This document shows positions 43,058 through 52,169 of a stretch of 64,000 bases of DNA, in pieces. The notes under the pieces were generated by a model that saw only the letters and a list, made by a program, of their open reading frames with translations, did not search any database and was not told where the DNA came from. The stretch's first letter is position 1. Each line of letters begins with the position of its first letter. Source of the DNA: an uncultured Alphaproteobacteria bacterium (GTDB taxonomy: Bacteria > Pseudomonadota > Alphaproteobacteria > Micropepsales > Micropepsaceae); contig CADEFU010000003.1 in NCBI GenBank assembly GCA_902826695.1, positions 62,001-126,000 of the forward strand, written 5' to 3'. Both the position numbers and the translations under genes were made by a program.

Positions 43058-43182
43058 CTCACACAATGAAACAATGACACAATGAAGGAAAGTTTATTGG
43101 CGCGCAGCGCGAGTTCGACGCTGACAGCGCGCTAACGCGCGCGAACGATCACTCTCATAGTTTCATTGTTCCATTGTGTGAG
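43058..43182. mobile_element. 125-bp MITE-like element with terminal inverted repeats
   Basis: The left end reads CTCACACAATGAAACAATG inward from 43058; the right end, read on the minus strand from 43182, gives CTCACACAATGGAACAATG. The repeat continues as an ATGA(C/A)AC(A/T)ATGA pattern, with about 5 differences in 31 bases between the two ends. The same ends bound the gene-carrying element at 50329-50889. The interior is GC-only palindromic DNA. A GCGCGC-GTTA-GCGCGCTGTC stretch, read on the minus strand near the right end, matches the left-end interior of the larger element. It looks like a non-autonomous deletion derivative. The right arm overlaps the rsmD 3' end. A GTC flanks both sides if the element is taken to start one base further in. 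Confidence 0.72.
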
Positions 43183-49141: not shown

Positions 49142-50230
49142 TCAATCCTTCGCACCCGCACGCTTCGCGTAGTGCCAACCAAGTTCGGCAAGCGGCTTGA
49201 CCGATGCCGCCATCGTCGTTGCATGCGCGCTCGCGGCGGTTCCATCGCGCACGCGCCCGGCGATCCCCTGCAAGATGCCGGCGATGCGGAAGAAGTTGTA
49301 GGCGAAATAGAAGTCGAGTCCCTCGATCCCCGGCCGTCCCGTGCGCTTGCAATACATCGCGACATACTCGCTCTCCGTCGGAATGCCGAGCGCGGGCAGA
49401 TCGGCATCCGACAGGCTGCCTGTTCCCCCGCCGGTCCCGCCCGCAGGCATGCGCCACTGCATGATGTGATAGGTGAAATCCGCAAGCGGATCGCCGATTG
49501 TCGAGATCTCCCAATCGAGCACCGCCAACACCTTCGGTTCGGTCGGATGCAGGATCATATTGTCGAGCCGGTAGTCTCCGTGCACGATCGCCGCGCGCTC
49601 GCCCGGCGGAATATGCTCGGGCAACCAGGCCATCAGCTTGTTCATCGCCGGTATGGATTCGGTCTCGGAGGCGACATACTGCTTGCCCCACCGCGAAATC
49701 TGCCGCGCGAAATAGCTCCCGGGCTTCCCGAAATCCTCAAGCCCCAATTTCACGTGATCGAGCTGATGCAATTTCGCGAGCGTTTCGTTCATCGCGTCGT
49801 AAATGGCGTGTCGCTGTTTCGGCTCCAGGCCGGGCAGCTGCGGCTCCCAGATGACCCGTCCCTCAACGCACTCCATCACATAGAACATCGTGCCCACGAT
49901 GCTCTCGTCCTGACAAAGCACGTAAGGTTTCGGCACCGGAAACCCGGTCGGATAAAGCGCCGAGATAATCCGAAACTCCCGGTCGACCGCATGCGCCGAC
50001 GGCAACAGCTTCCCGGGCGGCTTACGCCGAAGCACATACTTGGCCTTCGGCGTGATCAGTTGATAGGTGGGATTGGATTGCCCCCCCTTGAATTGCCTGA
50101 TCGAAAGCGGCCCCTCGAACCCCTTGATGTGTTCGCTCAGATAAGCCTCAAGCTTCGCAACATCCAGCGCATGCTGCGGCGTCACCTCTTTGGTGCCGCT
50201 GAACTGTTCCTGACGCGACGGTTGAGACAT
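49142..50230 (-). CDS. ACAD10-type phosphotransferase (APH/ChoK family), copy 2
   Basis: 362 residues from the ATG at 50230. It aligns with copy 1 throughout: 'SIRQFKGGQSNPTYQLI', 'YVLRRKPPGKLLPSAHAVDR', 'AIVHGDYRLDNMILHP', 'VLDWEISTIGDPLADFTYH' and 'AMYCKRTGRPGIEGLDFYFA'. The N-terminus has an extra 'SRQEQFSGTKEVTPQ' segment. The shared motifs suggest an old tandem duplication with divergence, perhaps for different acyl chain types. The GxxExxY element lies 98 bp upstream. Confidence 0.9.
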   Translation of the reverse strand: MSQPSRQEQFSGTKEVTPQHALDVAKLEAYLSEHIKGFEGPLSIRQFKGGQSNPTYQLITPKAKYVLRRKPPGKLLPSAHAVDREFRIISALYPTGFPVPKPYVLCQDESIVGTMFYVMECVEGRVIWEPQLPGLEPKQRHAIYDAMNETLAKLHQLDHVKLGLEDFGKPGSYFARQISRWGKQYVASETESIPAMNKLMAWLPEHIPPGERAAIVHGDYRLDNMILHPTEPKVLAVLDWEISTIGDPLADFTYHIMQWRMPAGGTGGGTGSLSDADLPALGIPTESEYVAMYCKRTGRPGIEGLDFYFAYNFFRIAGILQGIAGRVRDGTAASAHATTMAASVKPLAELGWHYAKRAGAKD

Positions 50231-50328
50231 GGGCGTGGGCCTCGCTGATTTGCGGGCCACATTCATAACCATTCCGGGCGGGGAGGGAAGGGCGCTTTTC
50301 CGATGTCCGGCCACGAGAAGAAAGGAAT

Positions 50329-50889
50329 CTCACACAGTGAAACAATGAAACGATGGCGCGCCTACGGCGCGCTGTCGTCCGGTTGCTTCCACACGTGAAT
50401 GCTGGTCAGGTCCGCTCGCACGTTGATCACCCTTTGGGCGCCTTTCTTGAAGGTCGCGGCTCCAAAGTTAAGCAGGAGGCCAAGCGGTAGGTGGAGCAGC
50501 CTTAGGTAGGTCAAAACTTGCTTCGGATGCACAGGTGCAACCTTCTCAACGGACTTCAACTCGATCAGCAGCCTGCCTTCGATGAGCAAATCCGCCTTGA
50601 AGACATCCTCCAATCGGATGCCCCCGTAGACGAGCGGAATCGGCTTTTGCCGTTCTACCTGTAGTCCTTGCTTCGCCAGCAGCTCTGCCATCACGGCCTC
50701 ATAGGCCGACTCCAAAAGTCCTGGCCCAAGGGCGCGATGAATTGCTAGGCCAACCCCAAGTGCGTAGCGCGCGAGTTGCTCGATGTCTTTCATTCTCTCA
50801 TCGAATGATCGAAAGGCGGCAAAAGAACGACGCACGCACAGGGCGCACCCGAGAGGGCACGCCATAGTTTCATTGTTTCATTGTGTGAG
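50329..50889. mobile_element. 561-bp element with terminal inverted repeats carrying a GxxExxY gene
   Basis: Left end from 50329: CTCACACAGTGAAACAATG, continuing AAACGATGGCGCGC. Right end, read on the minus strand from 50889: CTCACACAATGAAACAATG, continuing AAACTATGGCGTGC. There are about 3-4 mismatches in 33 bases. The one gene inside fills almost the whole element; its stop lies in the left inner palindrome GCGCGCCTACGGCGCGC and its frame opens inside the right repeat. The element sits between the purD stop (9 bp away) and a phosphotransferase gene. The sibling at 43058-43182 has the same ends. No target duplication is clear. No transposase is present. Confidence 0.78.
50362..50793 (-). CDS. 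GxxExxY protein (PD-(D/E)XK nuclease-like fold)
   Basis: 143 residues from the ATG at 50793 with GAGAG before it; the frame is open to 50865 inside the right terminal repeat. 'LAIHRALGPGLLESAYEAVM' contains the naming motif Gly25-x-x-Glu28-x-x-Tyr31. 'VFKADLLIEGRLLIELKSVE' gives the candidate active site Asp68, Glu78 and Lys80, and 'LTYLRLLHLPLGLLLNFG' is the family's C-terminal core. The family (PDDEXK_3 / TIGR04256) has no settled function. Here it is the only gene of an inverted-repeat-bounded element, which suggests that it acts on, or is carried by, those repeats. Confidence 0.88.
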   Translation of the reverse strand: MKDIEQLARYALGVGLAIHRALGPGLLESAYEAVMAELLAKQGLQVERQKPIPLVYGGIRLEDVFKADLLIEGRLLIELKSVEKVAPVHPKQVLTYLRLLHLPLGLLLNFGAATFKKGAQRVINVRADLTSIHVWKQPDDSAP

Positions 50890-50897
50890 TATTCTGC

Positions 50898-52169
50898 TTA
50901 CGCCCGCTTCACCGCACGCCACCCGATATCGCGGCGAGCGAACCCTTCCGGCCAGTCGATCAAATCCACCGCGCGGTATGCGCGCGCCTGCGCCTCGGCC
51001 ACGTCGCGCCCCAGTGCCGTAACGTTCAACACGCGCCCGCCGTTTGCGACCACAGCGCCTTCCTTCACGACCGTTCCCGCGTGAAAGATCTCAACGCCCT
51101 CGACCGCCGCAGCCTTTTCGAGACCCCGGATCGCGGTCCCCTTGAGCGGCGCTTCCGGATAGCCCTTGGCCGCCATCACGACGGTGAGCGCTGCTTCGTC
51201 CCGCCAGCGCGCATCGACCGTTTTCAACGCCCCGTCGGCGACCGCAAGCAGCAGAGGCACAATGTCCGACTTGAGCCGCATCATCAGGACCTGACACTCC
51301 GGATCCCCGAACCGCGCGTTGTATTCGATGAGCTTTGGCCCTTCCTTTGTCAGCATCAACCCGGCGAACAACACACCCTTGAACGGTCGCCCCAGCGCCT
51401 TCATCGCGCGAACGGTTGGAAGAATGATCCGCTCTAGCGTCTGCTTCTCGATTGCCGCCGTAAACACCGGCGCCGGCGAGTACGCGCCCATTCCACCGGT
51501 ATTGGGCCCGACGTCGCCGTCACCCACACGCTTATGATCCTGCGCCGCGCCAAACGGCAGCACCGTCTCGCCGTCGCAAAGTGCGAAGAAGCTCGCTTCC
51601 TCGCCCTCCATAAACTCTTCGATGACGACGCTCTGGCCCGACGCACCGAACGCGCCGGAGAACATCGAGTCGATTGCTGCCGACGCTTCGGCGCGCGTAG
51701 ACGCGATGATCACGCCTTTGCCCAGTGCCAATCCATCCGCCTTCACAACAACCGGCAACGGATGATCCGCCGCATAGTCCTTCGCCGCCGCCGCGTCGTT
51801 GAACCGGCGGAACCGCGCCGTTGGAATTCCCTCCGCTTCGCACAGCTCCTTCGTAAACCCCTTCGACCACTCAAGTTCGGCGGCAGCCTTCGACGGTCCG
51901 AAGTGCTTGATCCCGGCTGCCGCCAATCGATCAGCCAATCCGCCTGCCAGCGGATTGTCCGGTCCGATCACGACGAAGTCGATGCGCGTCTCGCGCGCAA
52001 ACGCCACGATCCGGTCGAAGTCCATCGCATCGATCGCGACGCATTCCGCGACCTTCGCAATCCCCGCATTCCCGGGCGCGCAATAAAGCTTGGTCGTCAG
52101 CGGCGACGCCGCAATCGCCCAACACAGCGAGTGCTCCCGCCCACCCGAACCGATAACGAGGATTTTCAT
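50898..52169 (-). CDS. purD: Phosphoribosylamine-glycine ligase
   Basis: 423 residues. '[19 protein letters not shown]' opens the protein; then '[17 protein letters not shown]', ATP-grasp elements '[15 protein letters not shown]' near 134 and '[16 protein letters not shown]' near 200, '[21 protein letters not shown]' (split: [22 protein letters not shown]) and '[18 protein letters not shown]'. It makes glycinamide ribonucleotide, the second step of purine synthesis. Its stop lies 9 bp from the GxxExxY element. Confidence 0.97.

Follow-up and report, generated by a model that had tools for sequence, protein, structure and literature searches.

In the window analysed here (the whole stretch of DNA examined, 64,000 nucleotides long), a 561-bp unit at 50329-50889 consists of inverted arms that enclose one gene of the GxxExxY family. 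GxxExxY genes are packaged similarly in many bacterial phyla, which points to a type of small repeat element, mobile now or in the past, that has so far gone unrecognised. On balance, and with modest confidence, the element is read as a REPIN/RAYT-like pair formed by a hairpin repeat and its cognate protein, the latter being of a Cas4/RecB-like nuclease fold as predicted from its sequence, and not of the HUH type. To our knowledge, no role has been assigned to GxxExxY proteins. Should they prove to recognise their own iterated-repeat hairpins and to spread them, a widespread family of nuclease fold would gain a function, many orphan intergenic hairpins would have an origin, and repeats would be seen to spread by a route that needs no transposase. 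The same idea would make a testable prediction for two more orphan families, TIGR02436 and DUF559, whose genes are packaged alike.

Architecture and position of the element

The element is located between purD and a phosphotransferase-like gene, not within an rRNA gene, and the two host genes and the element gene are all on the same strand. Its features are listed below (window positions).

50329..50362, plus strand: left terminal arm, CTCACACAGTG-AAACAATG-AAACGATG-GCGCGCC, made of 8-nt iterated units
50856..50889, minus strand: right terminal arm, inverted copy, CTCACACAATG-AAACAATG-AAACTATG-GCGTGCC
50362..50865, minus strand: GxxExxY (PF13366/TIGR04256) open reading frame, 167 aa in its longest form, likely start at 50793 (143 aa)
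50356..50372, no strand: inner palindrome GCGCGCC-TAC-GGCGCGC, containing the stop codon (50364-50362)
50318..50328, plus strand: purine-rich AAGA outer flank, conserved beside the arms of the window hairpin family
50890..50899, minus strand: matching AAGCAGAATA outer flank on the other side, overlapping the purD stop codon (50898-50900)
50898..52169, minus strand: purD, upstream host gene, its stop codon 8 bp before the arm start
49142..50314, minus strand: phosphotransferase-like gene (aph), downstream host gene, open reading frame from a GTG at 50314; the true start may be further in

The two arms, of 34 nt each, are 91% complementary at a spacing of 493 nt; no other inverted repeat in the 1.7 kb searched comes close to them. 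The initial annotation of this DNA, which had proposed terminal inverted repeats of about 31-33 bp around a single GxxExxY gene with its stop codon at the inner palindrome, is borne out on these three points, the identity of the gene being established by its matches to PF13366 and TIGR04256. Its statement that the reading frame opens inside a repeat holds for the longest form, which begins in the right arm, and not for the likelier 143-aa form. Translation probably starts at the internal ATG at 50793, which is inside the element and outside the arm; several relatives begin just before the DIE.LA stretch, which favours this start. An Rfam search of the element region matched no family.

The GxxExxY protein

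Profile matches were well above the curated cut-offs for both PF13366 (E 3e-34, 118 bits for a cut-off of 22) and TIGR04256 (E 6e-35, 120 bits for a cut-off of 35). Alignment of 20 relatives showed that E41, D81, E91-x-K93 and Q105xxxY109 (alignment numbering) are invariant, and these nuclease motifs, which correspond to the PD-(D/E)XK signature (E, D, ExK, QxxxY), are intact in the window protein. The AlphaFold model of the protein (pLDDT 88) found its best PDB structure match in Cas4 SSO0001 (Z 8.5 over 102 residues). Lower-ranking matches included restriction-type enzymes, Hjc resolvases, MGME1 and viral-type exonucleases; as modelled, the protein is a PD-(D/E)XK nuclease fold of Cas4/RecB-like build. 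The likeness to Cas4, RecB and MGME1 lies in the core that carries the four motifs, whereas the window protein is only about 140 aa long, lacks invariant Fe-S cysteines and has no CRISPR or helicase context. It was not considered as a Cas4, because the 20 aligned sequences hold no invariant or near-invariant cysteine and thus no conserved set for an Fe-S cluster. A sequence search of solved structures found no homologue, and PADLOC and PHROGs searches with the window protein returned weak matches only.

At the loci L021, L022, L023, L024, L025, L030 and L032, the C-terminus (S)ASPRLRVNQ is apparently translated straight through the iterated arm (TCCGCGTCTCCGCGCCTCCGCGTGAA), and the repeat is therefore partly coding in those GxxExxY genes.

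Inverted arms around GxxExxY genes across bacteria

A set of 80 GxxExxY loci was collected by a scan of species genomes and covered alphaproteobacteria, Verrucomicrobia, Bacteroidetes, Planctomycetes, Cyanobacteria, Chloroflexi, desulfobacterial and other groups. An inverted repeat was counted as bracketing the gene at a local score of at least 14, and 132 displaced windows of the same geometry, taken from the same loci, were used as control. Bracketing repeats were found at 80% of the 80 loci and in 2.3% of the displaced windows, with median scores of 20.75 and 9.5, respectively. A second comparison gave 77% for 31 alphaproteobacterial GxxExxY loci and 7% for 28 genes of UPF0102, a control family chosen for its similar size and which we take to have a nuclease-like fold. 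GxxExxY genes are thus repeatedly flanked in this way across phyla, and the approximately 20-25% of loci that lack a bracketing repeat are counted against the preferred reading.

Most GxxExxY genes of the relatives are bracketed by inverted arms of 8-nt units, for instance CACGCGGAG-ACGCGGAG, CACGCCAAG-ACGCCAAG, CACGAAGGACACGAAG and CACACAAAG-AAACAAAG. Identity within the arms reaches 48% at lag 8, against 23-33% at other lags, and the units are mostly of the form CRCNRAG when read from outside inward (82 of the 92 loci; 82:10). The exact 31-bp end sequence on which the initial annotation had focused is specific to one genus, and the general rule is that of inward-reading, 8-nt iterated arms. 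The median element length is 507 bp, and some loci present a complete hairpin on either side.

The gene itself is patchily distributed (24 of the 387 genomes of the class sample). Within this sample, triples of the iterated unit were detected in 12/24 GxxExxY-positive and 17/363 negative genomes (p=4e-9), some of the hairpins in the 17 gene-negative genomes being plain tandem repeats. The presence of hairpins in genomes that lack the gene implies either that relics persist or that something else can spread them.

Among six plasmid matches, the two that were inspected yielded no empty-site pair, and the Bacteroides "plasmid" with a GxxExxY match bears chromosomal-looking genes. A phage origin was unsupported, with no match in 50,697 phage records and one locus in 2.9 million viral contigs.

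Gene-less hairpins in the genome of the window

Repeats were counted in the 4.3-Mb genome of the window (G000) by pattern search and reading of stretches. The 14-mer TGAAACAATGAAAC, allowing 0-1 mismatch, occurs 26 times, mostly in facing inverted pairs, for a single occurrence of the same pattern read backwards; the repeat family is therefore not due to chance. In addition to the element, 13 complete hairpins of about 75-138 bp carry the ends of the element and no gene, and two further ends are unpaired. One of these hairpins lies inside the window and has an orthologous copy in the congener G002:

43058..43182, no strand: gene-less hairpin of the window repeat family

The consensus form is AAGA-N3/4-YTCACACAATG-AAACAATG-NAACAATG, followed by a variable core, often with small GC-rich stems, and by the inverted arm. 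On either side the AAGA flank shows a conservation of about 0.8 bit per position. Each element of the family in this genome folds into a long hairpin, and the dispersed inverted pairs are extragenic and hairpin-forming. The genome holds only three GxxExxY genes, each with its own, differing inverted arms.

Inner hairpins of the ACAATG type were also observed nested in outer 8-nt-iterated arms of other types (L044, L046, L047, L048, L050 and L051), which suggests insertion into the loops of pre-existing hairpins. One of them, L050, lies within outer arms of TTGAAACGCCAAG-CGCGCCAAG, the type that flanks L009, a paralogous GxxExxY gene.

Empty sites and evidence of movement

Empty sites, which the initial annotation had named as a check on mobility, were found in relatives for the element, for two gene-less hairpins and at a second locus in another genus. 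The purD-aph site is without the element in the congeners G002, G003, G006 and G008. Comparison with G002 (about 80% identity) showed that two gene-less hairpins of G000 are shared, and that two others and the window element are absent while the flanks align; at this identity, the flanks are too diverged to place the exact junction or a target-site duplication. G002 has 63 matches to the window-family ends, and at C10:551309-551626 it carries intact arms around joined C- and N-terminal remnants of a window-like gene, an internally deleted copy that corresponds to the expected path from gene-bearing to gene-less copies.

In the other genus, fabD and fabG are separated by an empty gap of 2 nt in G483, G484 and G486, and G435 and G485 have a GxxExxY element exactly between these genes. 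The two filled copies differ in arm sequence, each being altered on both arms, and G435 and G485 are the only ones of the fabD-fabG genomes compared that hold dispersed copies of the ends.

The mobile or repeat-spreading part of the earlier proposal, that of a self-mobilising or repeat-maintaining element, is well supported because gene-less hairpins abound and one internal-deletion derivative was found. We infer the mobility of the element from these sequence comparisons and regard it as well supported.

Elements between fabD and fabG were seen in at least two lineages (L179, on the Sphingomonas parapaucimobilis plasmid NZ_CP155749.1, L209 and L223); this repeated occupancy reflects either a hot spot or an old insertion, sister species having the empty 2-nt gap. 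A different long palindrome (CTTCCTGGGACCGCCGGCATCCTGCCGGC...) follows purD at L164 (G007:C271), near the site of the G000 element.

Co-variation of protein and arms

Protein similarity and arm similarity are correlated over 91 loci (Mantel r=0.47, p=0.001), with a partial correlation of 0.46 once GC is taken into account. The nearest congener protein (L036, 65%) also has the nearest arms, CTCACACAAAG-AAACAAAG. Such a correlation fits co-descent and would be expected under recognition of the arms by the protein, but may reflect joint descent instead. The two arms of one element resemble each other little more than arms taken from different elements do (p=0.05), a point against the preferred reading; homogenisation within elements is at most weak.

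Mismatches between arms, read on the sense strand, show no G-U bias (205 vs 215), which favours an action on DNA; a hairpin acting at the RNA level, for which an excess of G-U among arm mismatches was looked for, was unsupported. Element genes are codirectional with tandem neighbours in a ratio of 52:18 (p=6e-5), a bias that suggests expression by read-through.

Comparison with known systems and proposed mechanism

REPIN/RAYT systems consist of palindromic repeats in inverted pairs that form hairpins, with a gene flanked by cognate repeats, many dispersed extragenic gene-less copies, and co-variation of repeat and protein (PMC3116915, PMC8266576). The GxxExxY elements resemble them in their inverted hairpin pairs, single associated gene, dispersed gene-less copies and repeat/protein co-variation, and their way of working is proposed, by analogy, to be similar. 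They differ in that the sole gene of the element encodes a PD-(D/E)XK protein (PDDEXK_3) in place of the HUH/Y1 transposase, in that this gene is inside the hairpin loop, and in that the arms are iterated in 8-nt units and end in CTCACAC plus an AAGA flank, with no GTAG/CGTC tag. The element was thus not assigned to REPIN/RAYT, because its gene is not an HUH transposase and its ends are without REP tags. The element has in common with MITEs and IS its terminal inverted repeats, its empty sites and the existence of derivatives that lack the gene, one of them by internal deletion, but it has no transposase gene, and its arms are internally iterated and vary between copies. Homing endonuclease elements and 23S rRNA intervening sequences (IVS) similarly hold one small open reading frame in a hairpin-forming insertion, with a nuclease fold in the present case; unlike these, GxxExxY elements are not in rRNA or tRNA genes and not allelic only, being spread over intergenic sites. 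The element was rated as a new kind because the features tested for REPIN/RAYT, IS and IVS (transposase gene, REP tags, rRNA location) were not found in it. No description of the association of GxxExxY genes with repeats, nor of that of TIGR02436 or DUF559, was found in the open-access literature searched; an earlier description elsewhere is possible.

The protein may process its own repeats, as its intact motifs, its co-variation with the repeats and the analogy with REPIN/RAYT suggest; that it acts on DNA, recognises the hairpin, cuts it and drives the spread is what we infer. The arms would pair in single-stranded DNA or in an extruded cruciform, and the protein, made from transcripts that run through from the upstream host gene, would recognise the hairpin of its cognate iterated arms and cut or trim at it. 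Repair or replication would then place a copy of the hairpin at another intergenic site. Where an internal deletion removes the gene, the copy would keep its arms, and gene-less hairpins would spread in trans, as REPINs do by RAYTs.

Alternative explanations

According to the main alternative, which is unlikely on the present evidence, the hairpins belong to the host as regulatory, terminator or RNA-processing palindromes and are multiplied by another enzyme (a RAYT or an IS) or by replication slippage, and the GxxExxY gene merely rides in a loop. The gene-less hairpins of the 17 class genomes without the gene would fit this explanation, as would the location of the elements in intergenic gaps with the gene running the same way as its tandem neighbours, and the nesting of iterated hairpins within one another. 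It does not explain why one protein family should be found with one arm grammar in many phyla when 2-7% of controls are bracketed, nor the co-variation of arm and protein, and the G-U bias expected of an RNA hairpin is absent.

A homing-type element was considered less probable still. The nuclease would cut the element-free target and repair would copy the repeat-bounded element by gene conversion, the arms being the borders of the conversion tract, which agrees with the intact PD-(D/E)XK motifs, with the presence or absence of the element among relatives at one site, and with the filling of the fabD-fabG site in G435, G485 and the Sphingomonas plasmid. However, homing returns elements to one allelic site and explains neither the iterated arms nor the gene-less hairpins that share the ends of the element and are scattered by the dozen.

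Least probable, and held to be quite improbable, is a nuclease serving the host in repair or anti-phage defence, with the repeats as mobilisation borders or autoregulatory site: the active site is intact and there is a weak match (E 0.03) to a PDDEXK protein of defence reverse-transcriptase systems, but no defence family was significantly matched, the presence in class genomes is patchy, and gene-less arm copies are unexplained by a benefit to the host.

Other small-protein families between inverted repeats

Two other families were examined in the class sample. For TIGR02436, the four-helix protein of 23S IVS, 20/27 genes (L264-L293) are enclosed by inverted arms whose period is strictly 7 (73% at lag 7), a grammar that differs from the 8-nt arms of GxxExxY genes. 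For DUF559, 20/26 genes (L302-L331) are enclosed by long inverted palindromes of the CCCTCTCCCC...GGGGAGAGGG...GGGTGAGGG type. If this flanking holds in wider samples, a class of such elements would be concerned and not one element. It is proposed, tentatively and with somewhat more doubt than belief, that the unrelated families GxxExxY, TIGR02436 and DUF559 (endonuclease-like; CCCTCTCCCC/GGGTGAGGG) each have their own hairpin-repeat system, and form a pan-bacterial, transposase-free class to which much of the intergenic palindromic repeat content so far unexplained in bacterial genomes would be due. Several copies of TIGR02436 in G410 are without arms. The DUF559 set includes a gene of the window's own genome, at G000:C1:383211-383531.
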